Source: an uncultured Lachnospiraceae bacterium (GTDB lineage Bacteria > Bacillota > Clostridia > Lachnospirales > Lachnospiraceae). From it: a stretch of 36,542 bases of DNA. A program made the translations under genes and the position numbers. This document shows positions 6,709-30,453 of this stretch, piece after piece (within the stretch, counting starts at the first letter, position 1; each line of letters begins with the position of its first letter). A model generated the notes under the pieces. That model saw only the letters and a list, made by a program, of their open reading frames with translations. It ran no database searches and was not told the origin of the DNA. Where the stretch lies: NCBI GenBank assembly GCA_947628045.1, contig CANQYP010000006.1:1-36542 (forward strand). Reading direction: 5' to 3'.

Positions 6709-6854
6709 CTCCCGCTATTTTTCGCGCATGACTTTCCGTTTCGGGAGACATGTTTTCTTCCCTTTCTTCCTATGAGTTTTTCTCCCGCTATTTTTCGCGC
6801 GTGATTTTCCGTTTCAGGAGACATGTTTTCTTCCCTTTCTTCCTATGAACTTCT
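6709..6854. repeat. Tandem direct repeat, period 73 bp, two full copies plus partial flanking copies
   Basis: ctcccgctatttttcgcgc... begins at 6709 and 6782, and ctcccgct again at 6855; 6 mismatches between the two full copies by eye. Confidence 0.9.
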
Positions 6855-8888
6855 CTCCCGCTGCGCCGCGAGCAAATCCGCCAGCGCGTTCCGGCTCCTG
6901 CGCAGGCGCCAGCCCATAAGGACGACGATCAACACAAAAAGGACTCCCATCAGCAGCAGGATCGCCGCCTGCCACTGGTTCGTCTGTTCCTCCGTCTTCT
7001 CCACGGAGAGCTCCACGATTCGTGGTTCCAGGATCTCCGTGGCGAATTCCTGTGTCTGGCGGTACGTCTCCCCGTACGCGTCCTCGTATGTCAGCGTCAG
7101 CGTACCCGCAGTCTGCCCGTACAGCTCGCCGACAGTGTCGTCCTGTCCTGAGTGTTTCACGTTGTTTCCGTCTGTTCCCGCATCCGCCAGGGACTCCATC
7201 GCCTTGCTGCCGACGTAGATTCGCAGCACGCCCTCATAGGACGCCCCAGCCTCAAGATTCCCGGCAAAGACATCCCCGGTCGCGAACAGCCCCCGCCCCG
7301 CGAACTCCACGCGCACATTGTAGACGGCGGCTTTTCCGGCATTGTGAATCGCAAAACTTCCCTCAACTGTGTCGGTCGCATAGACCTGCGCTGCCAGCCG
7401 GAACCCTTCCAGCACGACCTGCGACGGCTGGTAGATGTCCAGCTCCACGACCTCCGCCATCGTGTAAGCGGTTCCCTGATCGTTCTCATAGTCAAGCGTG
7501 ATCGTCACCGCCGCCTTCCCTTCCTGCGCGTTCGGTTTTACCGAGAGAAACGTCGGCAGAGAGATCGTCTCCTGCGCCCGGACTTTCCCGAAGTAAAAGG
7601 ACGTACAGCCCAAACCGATCGACTCCGACTCACTCCCCAGCGTCGCTTTCATGTTGTAGACAGGCTCGTCTCCCGTCATATTCTGAAACACAGCCGTGAA
7701 CGCATACTCCTGCCCCGCGGTGAGCTGTTCGCCGTCCAGGCTTTGCGAGAGCAGGAGAAACTTCGGCTGGCGGTGAATCTTCTCCGCGCTGCTGTCGGAA
7801 TCCACGCCTCCCCCATAGTTTCCTCCGTAGCTCCCCGCGCTGCCGCCAGACTCCCCGCCGCCAAAAACTTCTTGCAGCTCTTCTCCCATCTCACTTTTCT
7901 CTTGCTCCGTCTCCTCAGTCAATGGCTCCGTCGGCAAAACCGTTTCCGTCAAAGGTACTTCCGTCGCGGCGGTCTCCGTAACCGGCTGCCCGGGATCCGT
8001 CTCCCCGGCATTCGGCGGCACGTCCCCGTCCGCCGGATGCAAGAAATCGCCGTTTGTCCCCGGATCGTCCGGGACGAGCAGCGGCGGCTCTTCTGTCCCC
8101 GACTCGGGCGGTTCCGTCTGCCCCGGCGTGTTCTCCGCGCTAGACCCGGGCGGCTCCGTCTGCCCCGGCATATCCTCTGTATCAGACCCGGGTGAATCCG
8201 TCTGTCCCGGCGCATTCTCCGCGCCAGACCCGGGTGAATCCGTCTGCCCCGGTACGTTCTCCGCGCCAGACCCGGACGAATCCGTCTGCCCCGGCGCATT
8301 CTCTGTGCCGGGCTCAGGCGGCTCCGCCCCGTCCGTCACCGTGATGAAGATCCGGCTGCCAAGCTCCGCGCGCTGCCCCGCCTCCGAATAACCGACTGCC
8401 CTGACCGTCACCGGGTACTTGCCGTTTCGCCGCCTGTTCTCCAGCCTGATCTCACAGCAGAAGATATATGCCTCCACCGGCATCGCGGATCCTGCAAAGA
8501 GAAACTGTCCCTTCAGAACCTCCTTGCGGTAATTCGCGTACACAAAAGGCGCGTTCTCCCCCATATCCAGTTCCACCGTGAGGCGGTTCTGCCGCAGCGC
8601 TCCGCTCGAGAGGAACGGAACGACCAGATACACGACGCCATTCTCCACCTTCGGAACGTAGCCCTGTGAATAGGACATGTCCATATGCTCATAAAGGTGT
8701 TCCGTATCGATGTCAAGATGTACGGTGTCAACGTCAAGGTGCGCCTGCCCATCCGTTTCCCCTGTGTTTCGCGTATCGGGTTCCGTTTCTCCCGCCAGCG
8801 CCGGAACTCCGGTCAGAATAAAAGCCAGCAGGATCACGGCAAAGCTGCGCACCGGGTTCCTTTTCCCTTTCCTTCTCATCTTCCTCAT
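6843..8888 (-). CDS. Exported, membrane-anchored COG1361/S-layer-like protein with proline-rich repeats
   Basis: 681 aa; signal peptide (SFAVILLAFILTGVPALAG), PGQTDSPGSGAENA repeats, Ig-like central domains, C-terminal TM AAILLLMGVLFVLIVVLMGW and basic tail; ATGA overlap with upstream ATPase gene. Confidence 0.8.
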   Translation of the reverse strand: MRKMRRKGKRNPVRSFAVILLAFILTGVPALAGETEPDTRNTGETDGQAHLDVDTVHLDIDTEHLYEHMDMSYSQGYVPKVENGVVYLVVPFLSSGALRQNRLTVELDMGENAPFVYANYRKEVLKGQFLFAGSAMPVEAYIFCCEIRLENRRRNGKYPVTVRAVGYSEAGQRAELGSRIFITVTDGAEPPEPGTENAPGQTDSSGSGAENVPGQTDSPGSGAENAPGQTDSPGSDTEDMPGQTEPPGSSAENTPGQTEPPESGTEEPPLLVPDDPGTNGDFLHPADGDVPPNAGETDPGQPVTETAATEVPLTETVLPTEPLTEETEQEKSEMGEELQEVFGGGESGGSAGSYGGNYGGGVDSDSSAEKIHRQPKFLLLSQSLDGEQLTAGQEYAFTAVFQNMTGDEPVYNMKATLGSESESIGLGCTSFYFGKVRAQETISLPTFLSVKPNAQEGKAAVTITLDYENDQGTAYTMAEVVELDIYQPSQVVLEGFRLAAQVYATDTVEGSFAIHNAGKAAVYNVRVEFAGRGLFATGDVFAGNLEAGASYEGVLRIYVGSKAMESLADAGTDGNNVKHSGQDDTVGELYGQTAGTLTLTYEDAYGETYRQTQEFATEILEPRIVELSVEKTEEQTNQWQAAILLLMGVLFVLIVVLMGWRLRRSRNALADLLAAQRERSS
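8101..8310. repeat. Five tandem copies of a 42-bp unit (14 aa, GSGAENAPGQTDSP-like)
   Basis: gac(c/t)cggg...gttctccgcgcca units start at 8101, 8143, 8185, 8227 and 8269. Confidence 0.92.
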
Positions 8889-9532
8889 CTGATCTGCACC
8901 TCGCTCATCACGCCCGCGTCCATCTCGAACACGCGGTCACAGAGAATACGGATATCCTCGCTGTTGTGGCTCGCCAGAAGGATCGTCCGCCCCTTCTCCT
9001 TTTCCTGCAAAAGCAGTCCGCGGATCTCCTCCACCCCGTGCCGGTCAAGCCCGTTAAAAGGCTCGTCGAGCACGAGGAACTCCGGCTGTTCCATGATCGC
9101 CTGCGCGATGCCGAGTCTCTGCCGCATTCCGAGCGAATACTTCGCCACAGGCTTTTTCAGTCCCGGGTCAAGCCCCACGCGCAGCAGCGTCTCCGTGATC
9201 TGGACGCGTTTCAGTTTCCCACGCAGATCCGCGAGGATCTCCAGGTTCCGTCTGCCGCTTAGGTTGCCCAGAAATCCCGGCGTCTCGATGATCACACCCA
9301 GGCTTTCCGGAAAGTCGATCTCCTTTCCGATCAGTTTTCCGCCCACCCGCACAAGCCCCTCCGTGACAGGCAGAAATCCGCAGATGCACTTCATCAGCAC
9401 CGTCTTGCCGGAACCGTTGTTCCCGACGATGCCGCAGACCGTCCCGCGCTCCAGCGAAAAGTCGAGCCGTTTCAGGATCTCCTCCTTGCCGAAACATTTG
9501 CGCACCCCAGTCAGCTCAATGTAATTGTCCAT
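8885..9532 (-). CDS. ABC transporter ATP-binding protein
   Basis: 215 aa; Walker A GNNGSGKT, signature YSLGMRQRLGIAQAI, Walker B FLVLDEPFNGLD. Confidence 0.95.
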   Translation of the reverse strand: MDNYIELTGVRKCFGKEEILKRLDFSLERGTVCGIVGNNGSGKTVLMKCICGFLPVTEGLVRVGGKLIGKEIDFPESLGVIIETPGFLGNLSGRRNLEILADLRGKLKRVQITETLLRVGLDPGLKKPVAKYSLGMRQRLGIAQAIMEQPEFLVLDEPFNGLDRHGVEEIRGLLLQEKEKGRTILLASHNSEDIRILCDRVFEMDAGVMSEVQIR

Positions 9533-9616: not shown

Positions 9617-10345
9617 TCAGATTTCTCTCAAAGCATGCTCCAGCGCAAGCGCGTGCAGCAGCGCACAGCCCGCCGCCAGCAGCAGAAGGAAAAGCCAAAG
9701 CCCGAGTTTTCCCTCGCCCCAGTTCTGCTCCGCCTTGATCCACTCCGCCGGATCCATGCAGTAGAGCCCCTCCAGATAACGGTCGCGCAGGATCACGCAG
9801 CTGTAAAACAGGACAAACGGCAGCCCGAACGCCAGATAAACCGTACCTCCTGTGATCGCGCACACCGCGCTCAGGGACGCCAGCGCGCTCGCAATCAGAC
9901 ATACTCTTCCGCTCAACTCCCAAAGCGCCCGAATCGGCTCGATCTGTCCGCTCCAGACCTGCTCCCGCGCAAAAAAGAGCAAAAAAAAGAAAAGCACGGC
10001 GAAAAATATCGCGAACAGCCACACCAACGCGCCCGAGAGCGCCGTTGTGAGCAGCTTGTCCATGCAGTACTCGCGCCTTCCTCTCCGCGCGAGCAAAAAT
10101 CGCTGAAACCTTCCCCGGCGCTCCCGCAGATATTCGTCGCCATACGGAATCACAGACGTCAGCGGGAGCAGAAACAGCACCGTCCTGGAGCGCAGCGCCC
10201 ACGCAGGCAGGCTGAGGAACGTGCCAGCCGCGAGTGTCTTCGCCCCGAGGGACCCAGCCCACGCAGTCCCCGCCAGGATCCCCAGAAAGGACAGCAGCAC
10301 CGCCAGATAAAATTTTCTGTCCCGAAACAGCCGTTTCAGATCCAT
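9617..10345 (-). CDS. ABC transporter permease-like membrane protein
   Basis: 242 aa, multiple hydrophobic segments; adjacent to the ATPase and a second permease. Confidence 0.75.
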   Translation of the reverse strand: MDLKRLFRDRKFYLAVLLSFLGILAGTAWAGSLGAKTLAAGTFLSLPAWALRSRTVLFLLPLTSVIPYGDEYLRERRGRFQRFLLARRGRREYCMDKLLTTALSGALVWLFAIFFAVLFFFLLFFAREQVWSGQIEPIRALWELSGRVCLIASALASLSAVCAITGGTVYLAFGLPFVLFYSCVILRDRYLEGLYCMDPAEWIKAEQNWGEGKLGLWLFLLLLAAGCALLHALALEHALREI

Positions 10346-10346
10346 A

Positions 10347-11231
10347 TCATTCCGTCCCTGAAAATGTGAAATTGTACCGCCGCGCCGCGCGCCCGCTCAA
10401 AAGCGCCAGCGCCCCGAGCACCCCTGCAAAGATCAGGAGAGACTGGGTGACGGTCGGAAGATCGTCGTAGCCGAAATCATGCATTCCGTAGACCGCGTGG
10501 TTGAGCGGACTGATCCAGCCGACGAGACTGCGGATCCGATAGAGCTGATACTCCTCATACCCCAGCAGTTTCCCGATCACCTCCGGCTCCAGCAGAAAAC
10601 CGTACAAGCTGTAGCCAAGCGCAAGCAGCATGCCGTATTTCCTGCCCGGCAGCAGATTCCCGAGCAGAACCAGAAAGCCGAGCGTGAGACTGTAGCCGAA
10701 CATCAGCGCCGCCACCTGCAGCATACAGCCATACGGACGAATGCTCTCCATCAGCTTGACCGTGGACGGTATGTGGAGTTCCCTCCCGGTCTTCGAATAG
10801 CCGAGGATCGCCGCCGTCTCGCTCCAGAGATTGCCCGGAAAGGAATCCCGCATGCACAGCGCGATCGTGACCGCAAGCACAAACGCCACGTACAGGACCG
10901 TCACCAGCACGACGTAACCGAGCTGCGCCGCAAGCCACCTGCGCCGCGTCATCCGCACCAGGTAAAACGGCGTGAACGCGGAGAGTTTCGGCAGGTCGGA
11001 GAACAGAAAGATCAAAAGCAGCGAGACGAGCAGAACTGCCTGTGTGTCGCCGAACGTCCAGATGAACGGCTCCGCCGCCTGCATCGGCGCGCCGAAGTGG
11101 ATCACCGCCTCGTACACGCGCCCGCTCAGCAGGTAGCAGACGATTGCGCTCAAGAGGAAGACGATCACGGTCCGCGAGTTTCGGAAAAACCCGAGAAAGT
11201 TGAAACGCGCCGCCGCGCAGATCTGCCTCAT
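10347..11231 (-). CDS. ABC transporter permease-like membrane protein
   Basis: 294 aa polytopic protein (VIVFLLSAIVCYLLSG, LLVSLLLIFLFSDL, LVTVLYVAFVLAVTIALC); one base from the next gene. Confidence 0.75.
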   Translation of the reverse strand: MRQICAAARFNFLGFFRNSRTVIVFLLSAIVCYLLSGRVYEAVIHFGAPMQAAEPFIWTFGDTQAVLLVSLLLIFLFSDLPKLSAFTPFYLVRMTRRRWLAAQLGYVVLVTVLYVAFVLAVTIALCMRDSFPGNLWSETAAILGYSKTGRELHIPSTVKLMESIRPYGCMLQVAALMFGYSLTLGFLVLLGNLLPGRKYGMLLALGYSLYGFLLEPEVIGKLLGYEEYQLYRIRSLVGWISPLNHAVYGMHDFGYDDLPTVTQSLLIFAGVLGALALLSGRAARRYNFTFSGTE

Positions 11232-11331: not shown

Positions 11332-13008
11332 TCAGTATCCGAGGTTCCGGTCGATCACGGTGCCGTCCGCCGCGTTTACAGTCAGAAAGCTGTTCTGGGG
11401 GCGCTCAACCGTGCTGCTCCCGGTCTCTCCCTCGTAATCGTACTCATCCGTATGCCGCCCGAAGAAATCCCAGACCGGCACGAGAAGTCCGGACCGGCTG
11501 TCCGTTCCCGGGTCGTAGATCCGCATATAGCCAAGCTGCACCCGGTCGATCTCATACTCGCTGAGCGTCGAGTACTCCATATCCGCGCTCTTGATCCGCA
11601 GCATCTGCTCAAAGATCCCCGCGATCTCCGGGAAGGAAAGCATCTCCACATTCTCCACCTGCTGCTCCTCGACGTCATAAAGATTCATGATCGTCACATT
11701 CTGCAATCCTTCTGCATTCACCGTGAGTTCCACGCGCTCATAGCACCAGGGCACCGTCGTCGTGTCGTCCATCGACTGCAGCGCGCCGCCGTAGTTTTCC
11801 TCGTCTGTGACCGGGAAACCGCCGACGTCACGGGTATAATCCACCTGCCAGCCAGTCGACTCAAACTCGGACCCGGAGCTGCTGCCCGCCTCTTCCTCGA
11901 TGATCCGCCAGCTTGCGCTTAAGTTGACCGCCTTGGCTGAAAACTCTTCCGAAAGCCCCAGCTTTTCTATATAGGCATCTGCCATCGCCTGCGCCTCCTC
12001 CTGCGAGATTCCTGTCATCCGGACGAGCTCCTCCGGCGACGGCAAGCGCTCCGGACCGAGCTCGTTCAGTTCCAGCGTATGCCATGACACTTCCTCCAGT
12101 CGTTCCTTTCCCCGCCGGATCTTGATCTCCATCGGCATATCCCGCATGCTATTCAGCCTGTAATCATAGAACGTGCCGTCGTCCATCTCCACTGCCCCGC
12201 TGAACCATTTATCATCTCCGTCCTGATTGTACTGCTTTTCTCCGTTCTCCCCGCCGATCCACCAGCTCGCCCCGAGCGCCGGCGTCACCTCACTTCGCTC
12301 CGGCTCCTCGGGCGCGTCTGCATAGTTCTGTTCGCAGGTGTCAATATAATCCTGCAGCGTCGGCATATCCGCCAGATCTTCCTCGCTGTAATATGGAAGA
12401 CTCTCCTCCGACACATAAGGTCCGTAAGGATGGCTGCCCTCCGCCTGCCACGCCTTATACCGCTCGAGTTTCTCAAGCACATCTTCTTTCGTCTCCACGA
12501 AGTACGTGTCCCCGTTGTAGACTGGCTGATCGCCGAAGAACGCCTCCGTCACCCGATCGATCCATTCCTGTGAAAATTCCCGCTGCGTCACCTTCCACAC
12601 CGATACCTTTTCCACGTCCGGCACGATCACCTGCGCGTCACAGCTCAGCTTATAGATGCCTTCGCTGTCCGAGGCGGTGTAGCGCTCTGGCACCTGCAGG
12701 CGCTGCGCGAGGGCGTTCGTGCTGCTGACGTTCGCATCTGGAGCGTCCTCCGGATTTCCGTCGGACACAGGCTGATCGTCTGATGCCGTTTCGTCTGATG
12801 CCGTTTCGCCTGATGCGCGATTTTGTCCGTCCTCTGCGCTTTTTTCTGTCAGACTTTCCTGCGCGTCCGCCTCCTGATACTGGGCGAGGCTGTTGTCGCC
12901 CTTCTGGCGCACCACCGCCTGATCCGGCGTTTTCGCGCAGCCCGCTGACAAAAGCAGCGCAAGCGCCGCGGCTGACAGCCCCAAAAATCTTATTGTTCCG
13001 TTCTGCAT
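11332..13008 (-). CDS. DUF6034-like lipoprotein (family name from memory)
   Basis: Likely start at internal Met (MQNGTIRFLGLSAAALALLLSAGCAK) with lipobox LSAGC; the longer ORF starts at 13044. Confidence 0.75.
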   Translation of the reverse strand: MQNGTIRFLGLSAAALALLLSAGCAKTPDQAVVRQKGDNSLAQYQEADAQESLTEKSAEDGQNRASGETASDETASDDQPVSDGNPEDAPDANVSSTNALAQRLQVPERYTASDSEGIYKLSCDAQVIVPDVEKVSVWKVTQREFSQEWIDRVTEAFFGDQPVYNGDTYFVETKEDVLEKLERYKAWQAEGSHPYGPYVSEESLPYYSEEDLADMPTLQDYIDTCEQNYADAPEEPERSEVTPALGASWWIGGENGEKQYNQDGDDKWFSGAVEMDDGTFYDYRLNSMRDMPMEIKIRRGKERLEEVSWHTLELNELGPERLPSPEELVRMTGISQEEAQAMADAYIEKLGLSEEFSAKAVNLSASWRIIEEEAGSSSGSEFESTGWQVDYTRDVGGFPVTDEENYGGALQSMDDTTTVPWCYERVELTVNAEGLQNVTIMNLYDVEEQQVENVEMLSFPEIAGIFEQMLRIKSADMEYSTLSEYEIDRVQLGYMRIYDPGTDSRSGLLVPVWDFFGRHTDEYDYEGETGSSTVERPQNSFLTVNAADGTVIDRNLGY

Positions 13009-13132
13009 GTGAAATCTCCCCTCTGCCTGTAGTTCGACCAGCATTCAAGTCCTGTTTTCCCGCCATTCTCCATCCGCTCGCGCACAGACTCGAATCCCCC
13101 GTCCTCCGCAGTTTGTTTGTCGTGTCAGGTAC

Positions 13133-13138
13133 AGTATA
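13133..13138 (-). promoter_or_regulatory. -10 box (TATACT) of the lipoprotein-ABC operon promoter
   Basis: TATACT exactly 30 bp downstream of the operator at 13169-13187; weak -35 (AAGACA/AGACAC), as expected for an activated promoter. Confidence 0.6.
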
Positions 13139-13168
13139 AGACGATCACGATTTCCGTGTCTTTGCCGC

Positions 13169-13187
13169 GATGTAAACAAGTTGTAAC
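13169..13187 (-). promoter_or_regulatory. Candidate OmpR/PhoB-type response-regulator site A: GTTACAACTTGTTTACATC
   Basis: TTACA direct repeat, 11-bp phase; near-identical to site B at 15545-15562 with identical spacing to the -10. Confidence 0.7.
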
Positions 13188-13199
13188 GATCGGCGGCTG

Positions 13200-13313
13200 C
13201 AATTGCTCTGGCGAAGTTCAGCTGTATTGTCTTCCGCCTGATCTCACGGATATGCTGCTTTGCGATCTCACAATTTCTCTGGCGCGGCTCAGCCGGATCG
13301 TCTTCCGCCTGAT
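13200..13313. repeat. Degenerate direct repeat, 43 bp at 71-bp spacing, copying the histidine kinase 3' end
   Basis: caattgctctggcgaagttcagctgtattgtcttccgcctgat (13200) versus caatttctctggcgcggctcagccggatcgtcttccgcctgat (13271); 7 mismatches by eye. Confidence 0.85.
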
Positions 13314-14743
13314 ATGCAATGGCAGGTCACTGTCGTCCCCTTCCCGGGCTTGCTCTGAATCTCCAGGCTCCAGCCGTGCAGCCGCGCGATCTGCTCGCAG
13401 AGCGCCAGCCCGAGCCCGGCGCCGCCCGCCTGACGGGACCGGGATTTGTCCACCATGTAAAACGGCTCCAGGATCTTCGCAAGCTCCTCCTGCGGGATGC
13501 CCTGTCCTTCGTCAGACACCGAAATCCCTTCTTTCGCCGCCGCGAGCCGGATCGTGCCGCCCGGCGCGCTCGCCTTCACGGCGTTTTCCGTCAGATTCAC
13601 GAGAAGGCTGACCAGAAGATCCGCATCCCCCTCGACCGTCGCCGCTCCCTCCCCGACCTCTGTCTCCAGACGCAGCCCTTTCTCCACGAGCTGTCGCTGC
13701 AGCAGCGCCTTCGTCTCCGCGAAAAGCCGCTCCACCTCCAGCGTCTTTTTCTCCGCCTCGATCCCCTCCCCGCTCTCCCCGGAAAGCTCCTCGAGCTGCA
13801 AAAGCTTTGCGGACAGACGCGACAGGCGCTTGCACTCCTGCTCAATATACGAAAGCGCCTCCTGCTGCCGCTCCTGCGGAAGTTCGACGCGCTGCAGCAG
13901 CTCGGCGTAGCCCTGTATCCCGGTCATCGGCGTCTTCAGCTCGTGCGCGAGCGCGCCCAGGAGCCGCCGCTGTTTCTCATTCGTCGCGGCAAGGTTCTGC
14001 ACCTGCCCTTCCACCTGCCGCGCCATCTCGTTAAAGCTCCTCGCCACCTCCGTCACTTCGTCATGTCCGCGTTCTTCCACGCGTACACGGTAATCCCCGC
14101 CCGCGATCCTTGCCGCAGCAGCGCTCAGCTCGCGCACCGGGCGCAGAATGCGCCGAACCGCCAGCGACAGCACAAAGAGCAAAAGGACGACCAGTGCAAG
14201 CGCCATCCCGCCGCCCCGCAAAAACAGCTCACGGCTTTCTTCATACAATTCCGTGACGTCCCGGTAATGGATCAGCTCAAACTTGGTATTGCCGATCGGT
14301 TCGTACAGAATCAAGAGCTTTCTGCCTTCTGTCTCCCCGATGAGCGCCGAAACGCCGCTGTGCCACACGCCCTCGTCCAGATACTTTTGCAGTTCCGAAA
14401 AATCGTCCCCATGCTCTTTCAGATAATCCAAGTCAAACGCAAAAGAGGAAATATTGGACAGCTCTTCCCCGTCATAGTAGAGCGCCGCGTTTGCGCCGTA
14501 CCCCATCTGAAACCTGCTGCGCCCCCAGAACCGTTCTCCGTTCTCGTCCTGAAGGTAGCGCCGGTTCCGGCCAAACTCCTCTGAAAAGCGCTGTGCCGAC
14601 GCATTCAGGCGCGCCAGCTCGCTGTTCAGGACACTGCCGAGGCGCATCCGCTGCGTCTCCGTCAGGTTCCAGATTGAGAATAGCTGGGAAAAAAGAAACA
14701 GCAGACCGACGGTCGCTGCCAAGATTTTTGTCGTCAGTTTCAT
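13289..14743 (-). CDS. Sensor histidine kinase (HAMP, HisKA, HATPase_c)
   Basis: 484 aa; two TMs, HAMP-like linker, H-box LLGALAHELKTPMTGIQGY, N-box NLTENAVKAS, G-box DEGQGIPQEE and GGAGLGLALC. Confidence 0.96.
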   Translation of the reverse strand: MKLTTKILAATVGLLFLFSQLFSIWNLTETQRMRLGSVLNSELARLNASAQRFSEEFGRNRRYLQDENGERFWGRSRFQMGYGANAALYYDGEELSNISSFAFDLDYLKEHGDDFSELQKYLDEGVWHSGVSALIGETEGRKLLILYEPIGNTKFELIHYRDVTELYEESRELFLRGGGMALALVVLLLFVLSLAVRRILRPVRELSAAAARIAGGDYRVRVEERGHDEVTEVARSFNEMARQVEGQVQNLAATNEKQRRLLGALAHELKTPMTGIQGYAELLQRVELPQERQQEALSYIEQECKRLSRLSAKLLQLEELSGESGEGIEAEKKTLEVERLFAETKALLQRQLVEKGLRLETEVGEGAATVEGDADLLVSLLVNLTENAVKASAPGGTIRLAAAKEGISVSDEGQGIPQEELAKILEPFYMVDKSRSRQAGGAGLGLALCEQIARLHGWSLEIQSKPGKGTTVTCHCISGGRRSG

Positions 14744-14744
14744 T

Positions 14745-15419
14745 TCAGTGTACCTCCAGCCGGTACCCGACGCGCGGCACCGTTTTGATCACATCGCCGA
14801 AATCGAGTTTCTTGCGGATGCGCGCGATATGCACGTCAATCGTCCGCGTCTCTCCCTCGAACTCCACGCCCCACAATACATTCAGAAATTCCTCGCGCCG
14901 GATCACGATGTTCTTGTACTTCACGAGCAGGAGCAGGCAGTCGAACTCCATCGGCTTGAACGGGATCTCCACGCCCGCCTTGCGCACAATGCGCTCCTTC
15001 GGATAGATCGCGACGTCCAGCACCCGCAGACACTCCTCCTGTTCCTCCGGTTTCCGGCAGCGATCCAGCACCTTCTCCACGCGCACCAAAAGCTCCAGCA
15101 TCTCGAACGGTTTCACCAGGTAATCCTCCGCGCCCTCGCGCAGCCCTTTGATCTTGCTCGGCAGGTCGCCGCGCGCGGTCAGGAAGATCACCGGGATTTG
15201 CCGCTCCCGCAGCTTGGGCAGCAGCGTGAACCCGTCCTTGCCCGGCAGCATGACGTCGAGCAGCGCCAGGTCGTAGGCGGCGCCGTCCTCCGCCAGATGC
15301 CGACTCAGCTCGTCCCCGTCGTAGAACGGGACGGCGCGGTAGCCCGCCGTCTCCAGATTGATGCAGATCAGCTCATTGATCGGCTTTGCATCCTCAATTA
15401 CCAAAATATCCGCGTTCAT
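14745..15419 (-). CDS. OmpR/PhoB-family response regulator
   Basis: 224 aa; receiver domain LALLDVMLPGKDGF, winged-helix EGETRTIDVHIARIRKKL. Confidence 0.96.
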   Translation of the reverse strand: MNADILVIEDAKPINELICINLETAGYRAVPFYDGDELSRHLAEDGAAYDLALLDVMLPGKDGFTLLPKLRERQIPVIFLTARGDLPSKIKGLREGAEDYLVKPFEMLELLVRVEKVLDRCRKPEEQEECLRVLDVAIYPKERIVRKAGVEIPFKPMEFDCLLLLVKYKNIVIRREEFLNVLWGVEFEGETRTIDVHIARIRKKLDFGDVIKTVPRVGYRLEVH

Positions 15420-15508
15420 TCTGCCGCTCCCTCTGATTTTTCTTCCAAAACGATAAGAACGGCAGACAAGCCGACTCCAAAGGGAGCCGTCTGCCTGCCG
15501 CCGCTCTT

Positions 15509-15537
15509 ATCATATAACGTTCTTCCGCCTTGTACAA
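15509..15537 (-). promoter_or_regulatory. Promoter of the two-component operon (TTGTAC-17-TATGAT)
   Basis: -35 at 15532-15537 and -10 at 15509-15514 (minus strand). Confidence 0.7.
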
Positions 15538-15544
15538 TGCAGAA

Positions 15545-15562
15545 GATGTAACCAGTTTGTAA
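15545..15562 (-). promoter_or_regulatory. Candidate response-regulator site B: TTACAAACTGGTTACATC
   Basis: TTACA-N6-TTACA direct repeat (11-bp phase), 30 bp upstream of the -10. Confidence 0.7.
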
Positions 15563-15578: not shown

Positions 15579-17375
15579 TCAATGGTAGCTCTTGATCCTG
15601 ATCTGCAGCGTCCGTCTGCCCATATACTCATTGATCGAGGGATAATATGCCACGGCAAGTTTCATGCCGTTTCCATGCCCCCGGAAAAGCTCCTCCACGC
15701 GCATCTCGCCGTATTTCCGGTTCAGATATGCGCGCATCTCGTCCACGTCCCCAAAATACAGCGCGTCCATGAACTGCCCTTCGCCGCAGCCAACGCGAAA
15801 CTTCAGCACATTCGCGTTTCTCCCGAGGATCCGGGCACTGTACAGCGCCAGTTCGGATTCGGAGAAATTCGGTTTCTCATTGCCCTTCCCGAACGGTTCC
15901 AGGAGCGAAAGCTGCTCAATAAATTCCTCCGACAGGGAACCCGGCGACAATTCTCCGTCAAGCCTGATCTTTTCGATCAGGTCTTCCTCGCTCAGCGCAC
16001 AGTTCTCGTTCAGCCTGCGGCGCATCTCCCCGATATTCTTCTGGTCCAGGGAAAACCCTGCCGCCATCGCGTGCCCGCCATAGTGCCGGAGCAGATCCTT
16101 GCATTTCATCAGCTCATCAAACATCGGGTACTCGTCGATGGAACGTCCGGAGCCCTTCGCCCCGTCTTTTGTGTCTGTCACGACAAAGGTCGGACGGTAA
16201 TAATATTCGCGCAGTCTGCCCGCCACGATCCCCGCGATGCTCTCATGACAATGCGGCAGATAGACGACCAGCACACGGTCCTCCCCGTATACGCCATCCT
16301 CGATCTGCCCGCACGCCTCCTTCACTGCCTGTTCCGTCAGCAGTTTCCGTTCTTCGTTCAGCTCCTTCAGCTGCCGCGCCAGAGTCAGCGCCTCGTCCTC
16401 TGTCTCGGACAGGAACAGCCGCAGCGAACGGTATGCCGTATCCAGCCGCCCGCTCGCGTTGATACAGGGACCGATGATAAATCCGATGTGATACGCGCTG
16501 ACCCGCGTCAGGTCAAGCTCACAGACCTGCGCCAGCGCCCGAAGTCCCGGATTCTCTGTCGTCGCGAGCCGACGCAGCCCTTCTCTGGCGAGAATGCGGT
16601 TCTCATCCACCAGTCCCACCACGTCTCCGATCGTCGCGATCCCGACAAACGGGAGCAGATCGCACAGCTCGCTCTTCTGCAGCCCGCAGAGCCGTCCGAG
16701 CACGCAGCACAGTTTCCACGCCACCGCCGCGCCGCACAGATCCTGAAACGGATAGCTGCAGTCCGGCTGTTTCGGGTTCACGAGCACATCAGCCTCCGGG
16801 AGAAGATAACGTCTGCCGGACGTTTTGTCCTCCTTGTACTTCAGCTCATGATGGTCGGTGACGATCACGGTCAGCCCCTGCTCTTTCGCGTACGCGATCT
16901 CCTTGACCGCCGTGATCCCGTTGTCGCAGGTAACGACCGTGTCGACGCCCTCCTGCACCGCCGCCTCAAGCAGCTCCCGGTTCAGTCCGTAGCCGTCCTC
17001 GATGCGGTCCGGGATCCGGTAATCCACGCTCCCGCCGCAGCGCGAGAGGATCCGGTAGAGAACATAGGTGGAACACACCCCGTCAATGTCATAATCGCCG
17101 ATGATCCAAAGTTTCTTTCCTGCATCGATCTTCTGTTTCAGCAGCTTGGCCGCCTCCACGCAGCCCTTCATGCGGTCCGGCGCATACAGGTCCGACAGCG
17201 CCCCGCGCAGATACCGGCGGATCGCCTCGTCTCCCTCTATGCCGCGGTTGCGCATAATCTCCAGGATCCTCGGGTCGAGCTCATACTGCCCGCCGACCGC
17301 CTTCCGGTCATATTCCAGAGCCGCCGGTTCCCCGAGCGGCTCCCAGATCTTTTCCCATGTATGCTTTCTCTTCAT
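15579..17375 (-). CDS. recJ: Single-stranded-DNA-specific exonuclease RecJ
   Basis: 598 aa; DHH motifs IIGDYDIDGVCST, VTCDNGITA, VTDHHE; GGHAMAAGFS DHHA1 motif. Confidence 0.96.
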   Translation of the reverse strand: MKRKHTWEKIWEPLGEPAALEYDRKAVGGQYELDPRILEIMRNRGIEGDEAIRRYLRGALSDLYAPDRMKGCVEAAKLLKQKIDAGKKLWIIGDYDIDGVCSTYVLYRILSRCGGSVDYRIPDRIEDGYGLNRELLEAAVQEGVDTVVTCDNGITAVKEIAYAKEQGLTVIVTDHHELKYKEDKTSGRRYLLPEADVLVNPKQPDCSYPFQDLCGAAVAWKLCCVLGRLCGLQKSELCDLLPFVGIATIGDVVGLVDENRILAREGLRRLATTENPGLRALAQVCELDLTRVSAYHIGFIIGPCINASGRLDTAYRSLRLFLSETEDEALTLARQLKELNEERKLLTEQAVKEACGQIEDGVYGEDRVLVVYLPHCHESIAGIVAGRLREYYYRPTFVVTDTKDGAKGSGRSIDEYPMFDELMKCKDLLRHYGGHAMAAGFSLDQKNIGEMRRRLNENCALSEEDLIEKIRLDGELSPGSLSEEFIEQLSLLEPFGKGNEKPNFSESELALYSARILGRNANVLKFRVGCGEGQFMDALYFGDVDEMRAYLNRKYGEMRVEELFRGHGNGMKLAVAYYPSINEYMGRRTLQIRIKSYH

Positions 17376-17392: not shown

Positions 17393-19537
17393 TTATTTTT
17401 CCGCCTTCGCGCCCACGCGGGTCTTCAGCACATACCACAGACCGCCCGTGACGCAGACGGAGGAATAGCCGCCTGCCACCACGCCGACGATCAGCGGGAG
17501 CGCGAACTCTTTGATCGTCGCCACGCCGAGCACGTACAGCACCGCAATCGTGAGGAACGTCGTCACAGAGGTGTAGATGCTCCGCGTCAGCGTCTGCGTG
17601 ATGCTCGCGTTCACAATCTCCGCAAGGGAAGATTTCTTCATCAGTTTCATATTCTCACGGATACGGTCAAAGATAACGATCGTCGCGTTGATCGAATAAC
17701 CCACGATCGTCAGCATACACGCGATGAACGTATTGCCCACGGAGATGCGCACCAGCGCGTAGCACGCGAACACGACCAGTACGTCGTGCAGCAGCGCGAG
17801 CACCGCGCTCCCCGCGAAACGGATATCCTTGAACCGGAACCAGATGTAGACCAGCATGCACAGCGCAGCCACGATCACGGCGATCACCGCGTCCTGACGC
17901 ATCTCGTTGCTCACGACTGAGGAGATCGTCTCGAAGTTGATCGCCTTCTCCTCGACTCCGTATGCCTCCTGGATCGCTGCGGAAACCTTCTCGCGCTCGT
18001 CCACGGTGAGCACACGCGTCTTGATGTTGACCTCGTTGGAGCCAGCCACCTTCTGGGTCTGGATCTCCGCGTCCCCGATGATGTCGCGGATGATCGGTTT
18101 CACGTCCGCGTCGATCTGGTCGATCGAGAGGTCCTCATTGAACAGCACGCTCGTAGCCGTACCGCCGCGGAAGTCCATGCTCAGGTTCAGCGCGCCCTTG
18201 CCCGCCGCGGAATTGATCAGCATCATCGCCGGTCCGACCAGGATCAGCACCAGCGAGATGATAAAGAACATTTTTCTTCTGCCCACGAAGTCGATCGGCT
18301 TGAGCTCTTTCGCTCTTCCGTAATATTTCTCATCCTTGAACCCTATCTCGTACAGCGCGTTCACCAGCAGCCTGGAGATCACCAGCGCCGTGAACATCGA
18401 CAGCACGATACCGAGCGCCAGCGTCTGGGCAAAGCCCTTCACGCTGCCGGTGCCGAGCAGATTCAGCACGAACGCCGCGATCAGCGTCGTGATGTTGCCG
18501 TCGAGGATCGCGGAAAGCGCTTTCTGGAAACCGGTCTTGATCGCCGGTTTCACCGCCTTGCCGTCGGCGATCTCCTCACGGATACGCGCGTAGATAATGA
18601 CGTTCGCGTCGACCGCCATACCGATCGTCAGGATGATACCCGCGATGCCGGGCAAGGTCAGCGTCAGGTCAAGCGCATTTATGGAAAGCAGCATCAGTCC
18701 CACATAGATCAGTAGGGAAAGACCTGCCACAACGCCCGGAAGGGCATATACGATGATCATGAAGATGATGACAAGCGCCAGACCGATCGCGCCCGCGATC
18801 AGGCTCGTACGGATCGCGTCCTGTCCGAGCTGCGCGCCCACCACCGTGGAGCGGATCTCCTCAAGCTCCAGGGAGAGGGAACCGATACGGATCGAAGAGG
18901 CAAGGTTCTGCGCCGACTCCGCCGTAAAGCTGCCGGAGATGACCGCCGTACCGCCCGTGATCGCCTCGTTGACGACCGGAGCGCTGATGATCTCGCCGTC
19001 ATACACGATGTTGATCACCTTGCCGACGTTCGCCGTCGTCGCGTCCGCAAACGCCTTCGTGCCTTCGCTGTTCAGGTCGAGCTCCACCACGTACTCGCGG
19101 TTGCCCATCTTGTCCTGCTGCTGCGCCGCCTGCGCGTTGTCCACCTGCGAGCCGTCCAGAACGACCGTGCCGTCCTCGAGCTGGAATTCCAGAGAACCCG
19201 GCTTGCCGAGCTCCTCGAGGATCGCGTTCGCGTCGCTCACGCCCGGGATCTCGATGTTGATCCGGTTCGTGCCCTCCTGGTAGACCTGCGCCTCGGTGCT
19301 GTAGCCGTCGACACGCTGCTGCAGCTTGTAGCGCGTATCGCTCATATCCTCCGCCGAGGGATTGTCGTCCACCGCCTGGTACGTGATGCTCACGCCGCCG
19401 GAAAGGTCGAGGCCCAGAATGATATTCTTCGCCGCGCCCGTCCCGCTCTTGCCGATGCCGAACGCCGATACATACGCCAGAAGTACCAGCGCCACCAGCA
19501 GACCTGCAAGTGTCCATGTAGCTTTTTTCTTGTTCAT
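17393..19537 (-). CDS. secDF: Protein translocase subunit SecDF (fused SecD-SecF)
   Basis: 714 aa; IILGLDLSGGVSITYQ, PGIAGIILTIGMAVDANVIIYARIREE, then SecF part SMDFRGGTATSVLF and GYSINATIVIFDRIREN. Confidence 0.96.
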   Translation of the reverse strand: MNKKKATWTLAGLLVALVLLAYVSAFGIGKSGTGAAKNIILGLDLSGGVSITYQAVDDNPSAEDMSDTRYKLQQRVDGYSTEAQVYQEGTNRINIEIPGVSDANAILEELGKPGSLEFQLEDGTVVLDGSQVDNAQAAQQQDKMGNREYVVELDLNSEGTKAFADATTANVGKVINIVYDGEIISAPVVNEAITGGTAVISGSFTAESAQNLASSIRIGSLSLELEEIRSTVVGAQLGQDAIRTSLIAGAIGLALVIIFMIIVYALPGVVAGLSLLIYVGLMLLSINALDLTLTLPGIAGIILTIGMAVDANVIIYARIREEIADGKAVKPAIKTGFQKALSAILDGNITTLIAAFVLNLLGTGSVKGFAQTLALGIVLSMFTALVISRLLVNALYEIGFKDEKYYGRAKELKPIDFVGRRKMFFIISLVLILVGPAMMLINSAAGKGALNLSMDFRGGTATSVLFNEDLSIDQIDADVKPIIRDIIGDAEIQTQKVAGSNEVNIKTRVLTVDEREKVSAAIQEAYGVEEKAINFETISSVVSNEMRQDAVIAVIVAALCMLVYIWFRFKDIRFAGSAVLALLHDVLVVFACYALVRISVGNTFIACMLTIVGYSINATIVIFDRIRENMKLMKKSSLAEIVNASITQTLTRSIYTSVTTFLTIAVLYVLGVATIKEFALPLIVGVVAGGYSSVCVTGGLWYVLKTRVGAKAEK

Positions 19538-19608: not shown

Positions 19609-21177
19609 CTATTCCGCCAGCGCCGCCTTGATCATAAGCGCGCACTCCACACGCTTGCGCTGGAGCTCGCAGCCGATGTCGTAGGCGTCCCGGATCGTCC
19701 CGTGGAAATTGTAGGAATTCGCCGCGCAGCCGCCGCTGCAGTAGAACTTCGCGAAACAGCTGCGGCACTTCTCCTTCGTGTAGACGTTGCAGCGCTTGAA
19801 CTCGTCCACGATCTCCGGTCGCGTGACGCCCTCGTCCACATTTCCCATCAGGTACTTCTCAACCCCGACAAACTGATGGCAGGGATAGAGATCTCCCCAG
19901 GGCGTCACGGCAAGGTACTCCGTGCCGGAACCGCAGCCGGACAACCGCTTGTACACGCACGGACCGCCGCTCAAGTCAATCATATAGTGGAAGAACGTAA
20001 AGCCGCGCCCCACCTTCTCGCGTTTCACCATCTCAGCCGCCAGCCGGTCATACTCCGCGAAGATCTTCGGCAGATCCTCCTCCCGGAGCGCATAGTCCTC
20101 CGCCTCCGGAGCCACCACCGGCTCGACCGAGATCTGCTCAAAGCCCTCGTCCGCCAGATGCAGAACATCGTTGGCAAAATCCAGATTGTAATGGGTAAAC
20201 GTCCCGCGGACGTAATATTTCTGTTGTCCCCTGCTGTCCGCGAACCGCTTGAACTTCGGCAGCACCAGATCGTAGCTGCCCTTGCCGCCCCGAAACGGAC
20301 GCATACGGTCGTGCACTTCCTTCCGCCCGTCCACCGAGAGCACCACATTCGCCATCTCGCGGTTGCAGAACTCCATGATCTCGTCATTCAAAAGCACGCC
20401 GTTCGTCGTCAGCGTAAAGCGGAAGTTCTTGTTGTGCAGCTTTTCCTGCTCCCTCCCGTACGCGACCAGATCCTTCACGACCTGCCAGTTCATCAGCGGC
20501 TCGCCGCCGAAAAAGTCCACCTCGAGATTCCGGCGATCCCCGGAATTCGCGATCAGGAAATCCAGCGCCTTCTTCCCGACCTCAGAGCTCATCAGCGCGC
20601 GTCTGCCGTGGTATTCGCCCTCCTCCGCAAAACAGTACCTGCAGGCGAGGTTGCAGTCGTGCGCGATGTGCAGGCACAGAGCCTTGACCACCGTACTGCG
20701 CGCCGTGTAATCGGTGATCGCATTCTCGTACACGTCCTCCGAGAACAGCACGCCGGCGTCCGCGAGCAGCCTGCACTCCTGCAGCGCCTCGCCGATCTCA
20801 TCGGTCGGATACTTCGCGATCAGCTCCTCCATGATCTCAGTCAGAAGTCCCGCCCCTGGCAGATCCTCCGGCTGCTCCGCCGCTCCGTTCCCACGCTGCC
20901 CTGACGCATCGATCTGCTCTTCCGTCTGGTTTTCCGACTCTGCTCTGATCCGATCTTTCAGCTCTTCTGTCTGGCTTTCCGACTCTGCTCTGGTCCGGTC
21001 GTCCGGCTCTTCCACCTCTCGGACGATCCTGTGCATCACCTGCACGATCTTGCGCTCCGGGCATTTCTTCAGCAGCAGCTCAATCACCTCGTACACCAGC
21101 TCGTCCACCACATGGACGGAGCCGCTGTTCACATCCAGCACGATGTTATATCCGTTGTTCTTGTATTGATGGATCAA
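19609..21177 (-). CDS. scfB: SCIFF/ranthipeptide maturase, radical SAM-SPASM thioether synthase
   Basis: 522 aa; RRE-like N-terminus (NNGYNIVLDVNSGSVHVVDELVYEVI), radical SAM motif CNLACRYCF, SPASM cysteines CGSGTEYLAVTPWGDLYPCHQFVG...CRSCFAKFYCSGGCAANSYNFHGTIRDAYDIGCELQ. Confidence 0.95.
   Translation of the reverse strand: MIHQYKNNGYNIVLDVNSGSVHVVDELVYEVIELLLKKCPERKIVQVMHRIVREVEEPDDRTRAESESQTEELKDRIRAESENQTEEQIDASGQRGNGAAEQPEDLPGAGLLTEIMEELIAKYPTDEIGEALQECRLLADAGVLFSEDVYENAITDYTARSTVVKALCLHIAHDCNLACRYCFAEEGEYHGRRALMSSEVGKKALDFLIANSGDRRNLEVDFFGGEPLMNWQVVKDLVAYGREQEKLHNKNFRFTLTTNGVLLNDEIMEFCNREMANVVLSVDGRKEVHDRMRPFRGGKGSYDLVLPKFKRFADSRGQQKYYVRGTFTHYNLDFANDVLHLADEGFEQISVEPVVAPEAEDYALREEDLPKIFAEYDRLAAEMVKREKVGRGFTFFHYMIDLSGGPCVYKRLSGCGSGTEYLAVTPWGDLYPCHQFVGVEKYLMGNVDEGVTRPEIVDEFKRCNVYTKEKCRSCFAKFYCSGGCAANSYNFHGTIRDAYDIGCELQRKRVECALMIKAALAE
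20911..21000. repeat. Two tandem copies of a 45-bp unit in the maturase gene
   Basis: Encodes DRTRAESESQTEELK / DRIRAESENQTEEQI. Confidence 0.88.
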
Positions 21178-27543: not shown

Positions 27544-30453
27544 TCAATTGACTGTCGGCGCCTCGCCGCTCAAGCCGAGGGCAACTGCCTTCTCCGCGTT
27601 CCAGAGCAGCTCATCCGACTCGTATGCCGCCACGCAGCCGCTATCCACCTGAGCCTGATTCAGCCCGATCAGCGGAACGCTCATGTCGTCCGCATATGCG
27701 CATACAGTCACCAGCAGCTCGTCGATCAGCTGATCGTCCAGACAGAAAATGCAGTCCGCGGAATCCACCAGCTCGGACGCCGCCAGGTCGATATCCACAT
27801 CGGAGCGAATCTCCATAAGCGACAGCTCCGCGCCGTACGTCTCCGCCAGTTTCTCGTATTCCGCAATCTGATCCGCCGCGGTCTGATTCTCGGAAGAATA
27901 GAGAATGCCAATCCTCTGCGCGTCAGGGAACAATCCTTTCATAAGCTCAAACTGGCTCTCGATCCCCTCGGTCAGTTTCAATGCCTCCGCCTCGGATTCT
28001 GTCACTGCCTCCGTTTCTGATTCGGTCTCCTCCCAGGCGTCCTGGGCTCCCGCATCGGTCTCAGCCGTCCCTTCGGACTGCTCCCCGCCGTCTGTCGTCC
28101 CGCTTTCCGTCTGGTTCGTGGATCCCGTCTGTGCGCTGTCTCCCGACTGTGCGTCGTCTCCCGGCTGCGCGTTGTCTCCCGGCTGCGCGTCATTCTCCGT
28201 CTGCGCGCTGTCCTCCGGCTGCGTCTCCTGCATCTTCGCCCTCGCCATGTCAGCGATCCGCGCCTCGTCCGTGTCCGCCTTTCGCAGATACTCTGATTTC
28301 ATGTAGCCAACCTCTACGCCGTCGGAAGACTCAAAGTAGATCTGCGTCCAGCCGTCGTCGTTCTTTGCCGCGTAAACCAGCATGCCGTCGGACAGCGTCG
28401 CCGTGACCTCCGCCTCCGTAGACGGCTCCCTGCGCACGTTGACATGAATGTCCGCGACGGTGCAGACGCCCGTCCCGAGCGGTTCCGCCGCAGTCTCGGG
28501 TTCCGTCTCCGCCTCGCCCTCTATCTCATCTTCCGTCTCGCCTTCTGCCTCGCTTTCAGCTCCTGTCCCGGTCTCTGTCTCACTGTTCTCCTGAGTTTCC
28601 GCGCCGCCGGTCTCTGTCTCACCGTTCCCCTGCGTTTCCGCACCGGTCTCCTGAGTTTCGGCATCGTTCCCCGATTCATCATTTTCCTGCGTTTCCGCGC
28701 CCGTCTCCGCCTCGGCGTCCTCCTGCGTTTCAGACTCAGTCTCCGTCTCGGAACGTTTTTGCTCCTCTATCAGCTCCAGGAGTCTCGGATTGTCATATTC
28801 CGCCTTCTCAAGATACTCCTGCAGCACATAAGCCTCTTCCGTCTCACCTGCGCCCGCATAGCGAATCTTTACCCAGCCGTCCTGCGCTTTCCCCAAAACA
28901 AGCACGCGCTCTCCTGCCGTAAGCATGCCAAGCTTGCCGGATTCCGCCGTCGCCTGCGCGCGGACATTGATCACTTCCTTCGCCGCATAAAGGTTCTCCG
29001 AATCCGTCAGGTATTCCGTCTTAACATAGCCTTCGCCAAGCCCCGTATCAGACTCATAAAAGATCCGGGTCCATGCGCCCGACTCGGCGGCAGCATAGAC
29101 GCTCATTCCCGCCGTCAGCGACGCTACCTGCGCGGCGTCCGTGCCCGGCTGCTCGCGGACGCGAACCGTTCTCTCAATGATACGGAGACCTTCCTCAAAT
29201 TCCGCCTCCGTTTCTGTCTCTGATTCCGTCTCGGTCTCCGTCTCGGATTCTGATTCTGTCTCAGACTTCGTCTCGGACTCCGTCTGCCGTTTCGTCTCAG
29301 ACTCCTTCTCCGATTCCGTCTGCTTTGTCTCTGATTTCGTCTCGGATTCTGTCTGCCGTTTCGTCTCAGACTCCTTTTCCGACTCTGTCTGCTTTGTCTC
29401 AGACTCCGTCTGCCGTTTCGTTTCAGACTCCTTCTCCGATTCCGTCTGCTTTGTCTCAGACTTTATCTCGGACTCTGTCTGCCGTTTCGTCTCAGACTCC
29501 TTTTCCGATTCTGTCTGCTTTGTCTCAGACTTCGTCTCGGACTCTGTCTGCCGTTTTGTCTCAGACTCCTTTTCCGATTCCGTCTGCTTTGTCTCAGACT
29601 TCGTCTCGGACTCTGTCTGCCGTTTCGTCTCAGATTCCTTTTCCGATTCTGTCTGCCGTTTTGTCTCGGACTCTGTCTCTGACTTCGTCTGTTTCTCTGT
29701 CTCAGCCTTCCGCTGCGTCTCCGACTGAGGCTGTGTCTCGGCTGCCAACTCGCCCTGTGACGCAGAGCCGGACAAAGCACTCGTCCCGGCGGTATTCTCC
29801 GTCTGTGGCACCGCAGTTTCAGCAGTATTTTCCGTCTGCGGTGTCGCAATCCCGGCGGTGTTCTCCGTCTGCGGCGCCGCAGTCTCAGTGGTCTGCGCCT
29901 TCTTCGCGGCTTTCTTTGCCGCCTTCTTCGCGGTCGCCGTCTGTCCCTGCGTCTCGGACTCCGTCGCTTTCAGCGTCTCCGGCTCCGTCTGCGCCCTCAG
30001 CGTCTCCGATTCCGTCGCCTTCTGCGTCTCGGATTCTGTCGCCTTCTGTGTCTCCGATTCCGTCTGCGTCTTCTCCGCAACGCCCGCTTTTTGCACAAAG
30101 CCGTCCCGGTTCTCGAAACGCGCCGTCTTCACGCCCTCTTCCTCGACCAGCTCCGACTCCTCCACGATCAGCTCTTCCTCTTCAGGCAGCTCTGTGGAAG
30201 ATTCCGCCTCATCACCGGACAGGTCGATCTCCAGAGACTGCATCTCCGTATCGATCTCCGGCGTCTCGGACTCCGACTGCGGCTCAGTCTCAGACTCCGT
30301 TTCGGACTCCGTCTCCTGCCCGTCGACGACGACCATATCGGCGACCGCCAGCGTCTGCAGCTCCGTCTCCCCGCCGTTTTTCTTCCCGCATCCGGACAGC
30401 GCCGCCGCGATCACGGACGCGCTGATCAAACCCGCAACTGCTCTGTACTTCAT
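27544..30453 (-). CDS. Repeat-rich lipoprotein: lipobox, Thr/Glu/Ser/Lys/Gln stalk, three SH3b-like domains, C-terminal partial ABC_sub_bind-like domain
   Basis: 969 aa; signal/lipobox ISASVIAAALSGCGKK; SH3b-like segments (TVRVREQPGTDAAQVASLTAGMSVYA, EVINVRAQATAESGKLGMLTAGERVLV, DIHVNVRREPSTEAEVTATLSDGMLVYA); C-terminus QFELMKGLFPDAQRIGILYSSENQTAADQIAEYEKLAETYGAEL. Confidence 0.85.
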   Translation of the reverse strand: MKYRAVAGLISASVIAAALSGCGKKNGGETELQTLAVADMVVVDGQETESETESETEPQSESETPEIDTEMQSLEIDLSGDEAESSTELPEEEELIVEESELVEEEGVKTARFENRDGFVQKAGVAEKTQTESETQKATESETQKATESETLRAQTEPETLKATESETQGQTATAKKAAKKAAKKAQTTETAAPQTENTAGIATPQTENTAETAVPQTENTAGTSALSGSASQGELAAETQPQSETQRKAETEKQTKSETESETKRQTESEKESETKRQTESETKSETKQTESEKESETKRQTESETKSETKQTESEKESETKRQTESEIKSETKQTESEKESETKRQTESETKQTESEKESETKRQTESETKSETKQTESEKESETKRQTESETKSETESESETETETESETETEAEFEEGLRIIERTVRVREQPGTDAAQVASLTAGMSVYAAAESGAWTRIFYESDTGLGEGYVKTEYLTDSENLYAAKEVINVRAQATAESGKLGMLTAGERVLVLGKAQDGWVKIRYAGAGETEEAYVLQEYLEKAEYDNPRLLELIEEQKRSETETESETQEDAEAETGAETQENDESGNDAETQETGAETQGNGETETGGAETQENSETETGTGAESEAEGETEDEIEGEAETEPETAAEPLGTGVCTVADIHVNVRREPSTEAEVTATLSDGMLVYAAKNDDGWTQIYFESSDGVEVGYMKSEYLRKADTDEARIADMARAKMQETQPEDSAQTENDAQPGDNAQPGDDAQSGDSAQTGSTNQTESGTTDGGEQSEGTAETDAGAQDAWEETESETEAVTESEAEALKLTEGIESQFELMKGLFPDAQRIGILYSSENQTAADQIAEYEKLAETYGAELSLMEIRSDVDIDLAASELVDSADCIFCLDDQLIDELLVTVCAYADDMSVPLIGLNQAQVDSGCVAAYESDELLWNAEKAVALGLSGEAPTVN
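29225..29715. repeat. Tandem 69-bp (23 aa) repeat array, about six copies, one shortened
   Basis: Unit KQTESEKESETKRQTESETKSET on the minus strand; boundaries approximate. Confidence 0.88.
29789..29887. repeat. Three tandem 33-bp units (PQTENTAGxxx)
   Basis: gcggtattctccgtctgtggcaccgcagtttca / gcagtattttccgtctgcggtgtcgcaatcccg / gcggtgttctccgtctgcggcgccgcagtctca. Confidence 0.85.

Follow-up and report, generated by a model that had tools for sequence, protein, structure and literature searches.

Predicted tandem TTACA operators at two promoters of a proposed Wal-like two-component locus encoding a DUF6034 lipoprotein in Lachnospiraceae

Related systems and gene content of the locus

Among the described systems closest to the locus analysed here is WalRK(YycFG)-YycHI of Bacillus and Staphylococcus. 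In that system YycH and YycI regulate the kinase WalK, which they activate in S. aureus and repress in B. subtilis (PMC10746227), and WalR recognizes an operator with the consensus TGTWAH-N5-TGTWAH (PMC4168254). The locus resembles it in that an OmpR-family regulator and a kinase with a WalK-like core are encoded beside the gene of a YycI-like extracytoplasmic protein, and in that its operator fits the WalR consensus when read on the opposite strand. It differs in that its regulator and kinase lie far below the cut-offs of the WalR and WalK models, that its YycI-like protein, some 560 amino acids long, is a lipoprotein whereas YycI is TM-anchored, that the lipoprotein gene has an operator and promoter of its own rather than belonging to the kinase operon, and that it holds a single YycI-like gene, not two. 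The Pho boxes of PhoP and PhoB, from B. subtilis and E. coli and also from the same genus as our genome, are direct repeats with 11-nt units (PMC4415409). The sites at the locus share the 11-bp period and, with the Pho boxes of the same genus, the TTACA half-sites and the distance to the -10, but they lack a third half-site over the -35, carry other spacer bases and are found in a locus that contains no phosphate genes. MtrAB-LpqB of Actinobacteria also combines a two-component pair with an adjacent lipoprotein gene, and MtrA is the best sequence match of our regulator in the PDB, but the regulator and kinase fall short of the MtrA and MtrB models. Finally, antimicrobial-peptide exporters of the LanFEG/CprABC type share with the locus an ATPase nearest to TIGR03740, two small permeases and OmpR-family control; unlike theirs, the ABC genes here are not constant across the loci that bear the operator.

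The window, a stretch of 36,542 nucleotides from an uncultured Lachnospiraceae bacterium, belongs to a genome of 2.68 Mb that is in fragments; the genome-wide counts given below cover all 2.68 Mb on both strands. The minus strand carries sites A and B and all of the genes discussed here, in the order SecDF (17393-19537), RecJ (15579-17375), site B, the response regulator (14745..15419), the sensor histidine kinase (13289..14743), site A, the DUF6034 lipoprotein (11332..13008), two ABC permeases (10347..11231 and 9617..10345), an ABC ATPase (8885..9532) and a 681-aa exported protein with a C-terminal anchor (6843..8888). The lipoprotein reading frame starts at 13008 (MQN...), as it does in the orthologues, and not at the ATG at 13044 chosen by the ORF finder. 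The first permease has five hydrophobic segments and no Pfam match, the second has a weak match to ABC2_membrane_4, and the 681-aa protein, which contains a weak CARDB-like stretch, closes the probable operon that begins with the DUF6034 gene. On its other side, SecDF adjoins a gene for a radical SAM/SPASM protein (19609-21177), an arrangement that we take to be the one seen with SCIFF peptide maturases.

The assignment of the encoded regulator to the OmpR/PhoB class, made in the original prediction, agrees with its domain content, which is a receiver followed by a Trans_reg_C domain (PF00072, PF00486). Among the NCBIfam models PhoB and MtrA score best, without any model reaching its cut-off, and the score to the WalR (YycF) model NF040534 was 139-140 bits against a cut-off of 340. 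We also considered the regulator as the WalR orthologue of this genome and rejected it, as its 139 bits compare with 270 bits for another, WalR-like regulator (G000:C9). In the alignment, the recognition-helix region GETRTIDVHIARIRKKL corresponds to a GETRT[IV]D[VA]H[IV] pattern that shows few changes across the clade of this regulator. The kinase has HAMP, HisKA and HATPase domains and, by hydropathy, two hydrophobic segments that enclose an outside loop of about 145 amino acids. Its best NCBIfam model is WalK (YycG; NF033092), with 182 bits over the kinase core only and a cut-off of 725.

Sites A and B and their conservation

Site B (TTACAAACTGGTTACATC, 15545..15562) precedes the promoter of the regulator gene and site A (TTACAACTTGTTTACATC, 13169..13186, or 13187) that of the lipoprotein gene. 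Both 18-mers are present as originally described, each matching TTACAN6TTACATC on the minus strand with zero mismatches, and in both the TTACA recurs after 11 bp, so that each is a pair of direct half-sites at the 11-bp period of OmpR/PhoB-family tandem operators. The claimed gap of 30 bp between the end of the 18-mer and the -10 was also found to be exact, with positions 13139-13168 separating site A from TATACT (13133..13138) and positions 15515-15544 separating site B from TATGAT (15509..15514); counted from the second TTACA, each -10 begins 32 nt further on. The regulator promoter has a probable -35, TTGTAC, at 15532..15537 with a 17-bp spacer, in place of which a promoter scanner ranks TGTACA first, at a spacer of 16 bp. 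No good -35 was seen at that place in the lipoprotein promoter (AGACAC / AAGACA).

Within the window, the number of matches is not striking: two were found with up to two mismatches where 0.61 were expected, and 11 of 100 shuffles reached two. Because this count is unremarkable, the case is carried by uniqueness across the genome and by conservation. TTACAN6TTACATC occurs exactly twice in the genome, as sites A and B, and not at all in the reversed control, in accordance with the genome scan that had been proposed. For the shorter TTACAN6TTACA the count is 7, compared with 5 for its reversed control, while TTACAN6TTACA-N32-TANNNT is found solely at A and B (control 0). The five other copies of TTACAN6TTACA were considered as members of a regulon and set aside, as they have no TANNNT hexamer at +32. 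That the full architecture is confined to two places in the genome speaks for a regulator of local, not global, scope.

In order to follow the sites across related loci, orthologues of the regulator were collected from 24 further genomes of the genus, where they are 60-95% identical, and from named Lachnospiraceae down to about 50%, and the loci were oriented and scanned, giving 47 regions upstream of the regulator gene and 45 lipoprotein (DUF6034) promoters. These loci are related and their counts are not independent; merging near-identical 60-mers reduced them to 17 sites of type B and 27 of type A. On the regulator side, an exact TTACAN6TTACA was present in 27 of the 30 loci whose regulator is at least 58% identical, compared with 0.03 expected in all 47 regions. 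The three exceptions were a contig cut 64 bp 5' of the gene and two loci with degenerate sites or none, L128 (regulator 79% identical; two mismatches) and L129 (74%). On the lipoprotein side, 41 of the 45 loci had the site with at most one mismatch (27 exact, 14 with one), where 0.34 were expected. A spacer of 6 was clearly enriched, with 27 loci at each promoter, and other spacers from 0 to 20 were seen in 0-2 loci, except that a spacer of 16 also occurred in 11 loci at the lipoprotein promoter. None of the permutations of TTACA was found in more than 2 loci. The trailing ATC of the motif as first proposed is not kept (the orthologues have AAC, ATT, AGC or AGT), and since it varies in this way the motif proper is TTACAN6TTACA.

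The distance to the -10 is conserved as well. Among the non-redundant loci, a -10-like hexamer lies at offset 32 in 22 of the 27 lipoprotein promoters (0.35 per other offset) and in 9 of the 17 regulator promoters (0.29 per other offset), a fixed distance that fits an activator site. Lack of conservation in orthologous loci had been named beforehand as grounds for giving up the prediction; the sites came through this check strongly at both promoters, the -10 distance included. The orthologous A promoters have no recognizable -35 (AGACAC, GGACAT, ATATCT and the like), and in the B promoters of the closer groups a TTG is kept at the -35 (TTGTAC, TTGCGT, and TTGAAA in a second group). This suggests, from the promoter sequences, that the regulator may be expressed at a basal level and positively autoregulated, with the lipoprotein gene under stricter control. 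In sixteen more distant loci, with regulators about 45-58% identical, the lipoprotein site was present in 15 (at most one mismatch) and the regulator site in none. It follows that control of the lipoprotein is retained over a wider range of relatives, and that only the closer loci have the autoregulatory site.

The surroundings of the sites vary among the lineages. In seven loci of one group of the genus, group 2 (L071, L072, L074-L076, L083 and L086), the kinase and DUF6034 genes are separated by a permease gene and site A still stands immediately before DUF6034; the first permease would there fall in the regulator-kinase operon and not in that of the lipoprotein. The site is often absent from DUF6034 genes of other genera. 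DUF6034 genes of five other genera (L098, L099, L101, L104 and L105) have a variant operator, TTACAATTTGTTTAAA, and again at +32 a hexamer, which is TAGGAT or TAGAAT. Three Brevibacillus loci (L153, L155 and L162), with regulators about 46% identical, contain TTACAACTC(T/G)ATTACAT about 46-48 bp before their own regulator gene, and two of them (L153 and L155) have a gene for an exported protein between regulator and kinase.

Operator class and candidate binding proteins

When the genus was scanned for the full architecture, sites were also found before pstS-like genes and before a Na/Pi-cotransporter-like (NptA-like) gene, these genes being recognized by eye from their sequences. These pst-type sites have the same TTACAN6TTACA and the same -10 offset as A and B, which rules out an operator class private to the encoded regulator. 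Because the repeat and the -10 spacing are shared, we place the A/B operator in the Pho/Wal class, and the sequence alone does not name the protein that binds it. The promoters concerned (L217, L219, L220, L228 and L240, at position 1501 or its reverse-strand equivalent) look like Pho boxes, with TTACAN6TTACA, mostly a third TTTACA-like half-site, and then the -10 at +32. In our genome, the B. subtilis-type PhoP pattern TTWACAN5TTWACA had one match, which is not above control.

The shared geometry, together with the 11-nt repeat units that define the Pho-box class (PMC4415409), leaves room for a reading in which A and B are Pho boxes of the PhoP/PhoB orthologue of this genome and the locus belongs to the phosphate-starvation regulon. 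We consider this unlikely, as the additional half-site reaching the -35 that characterizes Pho boxes was found in 13 of 15 Pho-type sites and in 0 of 19 locus sites, a contrast that is descriptive in that context and this very appearance were the basis on which the two classes were separated. The spacer bases differ between the two kinds of site (TTACAA...G vs TTACAT...T), site B stands directly before the regulator's own gene throughout the closer clade, and the locus lacks phosphate genes. Control by the WalR-like regulator G000:C9, with the locus as part of the Wal regulon, is a still weaker candidate. Both sites, read on the plus strand as TGTAAACAAGTTGTAAC and TGTAACCAGTTTGTAAA, fit TGTWAH-N5-TGTWAH, and this regulator is much the stronger WalR-like protein by model score; but a broad regulon needs many sites, whereas TTACAN6TTACA is barely more frequent in the genome than in the control, and across genera the site tracks the encoded regulator gene and its DUF6034 neighbour. 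Because the site is rare genome-wide and associated with the gene of the encoded regulator, that regulator is favoured as the binder.

Two further readings concern what the sites do. The direction of regulation is not readable from sequence alone, and A and B might be repressor operators through which the regulator represses both promoters, with negative autoregulation. This seems improbable to about the same degree as control by G000:C9, since an operator that lies 5' of the -35, and not over the promoter, is, as a general rule, typical of activation (PMC4168254), and the A promoters have no good -35; this upstream position and the poor -35 together are what activation would typically show. 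That the repeats arose by chance, or that some other constraint such as RNA or DNA structure preserves them, would suit the unexceptional count in the window and is otherwise scarcely credible, as the repeat is conserved in two places with a fixed spacer and a fixed -10 offset, against the 0.03 and 0.34 loci expected. The explanation that we prefer, and hold to be quite likely as a whole, is that the phosphorylated regulator binds A and B and activates both promoters, with a YycI-like lipoprotein as its target. The geometry that the sites share with Pho boxes raises the matter of how two regulators in one cell stay apart on nearly identical operators.

The DUF6034 lipoprotein and the proposed circuit

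The lipoprotein (PF19499; lipobox LSAGC) belongs to a family of unknown function, and no papers on DUF6034 or on EUBREC_2869 were found in the literature searched. An AlphaFold2 model built from 34 DUF6034 orthologues (pLDDT 78) was compared with solved structures by Foldseek. The best match was 5coz, an uncharacterised solved structure, followed by 9a5d, a WalK-YycH model (E 2.6e-5), and 2o3o, the YycI of B. subtilis (E 4.5e-5), the last two each with probability 1.00. When the modelling was repeated with a distant member of the family in the lead (pLDDT 80), the matches were again 5coz and YycI 2o3o (E 1.7e-5), and also YpeB (5boi). The likeness to YycI is partial, with TM-scores of 0.2-0.4, incomplete overlap of the folds, and a sequence similarity that lies for the most part in the last 50-100 residues. 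Profile-profile comparison by hhalign, using a YycI alignment made from Bacillus and Brevibacillus loci, gave E values of 1.8e-6 and 1.2e-6 in the C-terminal region, with the common pattern V.LGY...P.W...NA.DG.I. No member of the family reached the 29.7-bit cut-off of the Pfam YycI model PF09648, to which 4 of 34 had weak matches (best E 0.0031), and DUF6034 had no sequence match to any solved LpqB-kind protein. Judging from the models, DUF6034 probably has a YycI-like fold.

The circuit that we propose would begin with the phosphorylated regulator, which would bind TTACA-N6-TTACA head-to-tail as a dimer at roughly -60 to -45, just 5' of the -35, and from there activate both the regulator and the lipoprotein promoters. 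The partial -35 (TTG...) of the regulator promoter would allow basal expression and positive autoregulation, and the lipoprotein promoter, with no good -35, would depend on the activator. The YycI-like lipoprotein so produced may tune the adjacent kinase, and the ABC exporter would be an added output in this lineage. The original prediction of autoregulation together with activation is well supported by sequence, in that both sites are conserved, at a fixed distance from the -10 and in an activator position, with a narrower scope for each part. Autoregulation is predicted for the closer loci but its site is absent from the more distant relatives, and activation of a transport operon is supported as far as the conserved site before the lipoprotein gene is concerned, but ABC genes lie 3' of that gene in only some of the operator-bearing lineages.

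Feedback of the lipoprotein on the kinase is proposed because DUF6034 has the fold of YycI, which regulates the kinase WalK; as YycH and YycI activate in one species and repress in the other, the sign of such feedback is not predictable here. Feedback of the lipoprotein on the adjacent kinase, in a Wal-like envelope-sensing module extended in this lineage with an ABC exporter, strikes us as about an even call. The locus would operate in the manner of a Wal module, but the cut-offs of the WalR, WalK and YycI models place it outside that group. We further put forward, tentatively and as slightly less probable than its opposite, that this is a widespread and undescribed Wal-like module of Lachnospiraceae, in which the regulator directly activates the gene of a YycI-like lipoprotein and this protein in turn regulates the kinase of the pair, the closed sensor-feedback loop being the core function of DUF6034 and the ABC exporter a lineage-specific feature. 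The wiring implied would make a kinase regulator itself the most conserved target of the response regulator. For an uncharacterised two-component system of many gut Lachnospiraceae these results offer a predicted binding code and promoter geometry, and DUF6034 gains a probable fold and role.

The ATPase was also compared with the lantibiotic-protection ABC ATPases (TIGR03740), its nearest NCBIfam model, and was not assigned to them, as it scored 162 bits, about half of the cut-off of 309.75. Elsewhere in the window (27544-30453), a 969-aa protein was found to combine three SH3_3 domains and an ABC substrate-binding domain in a single chain.
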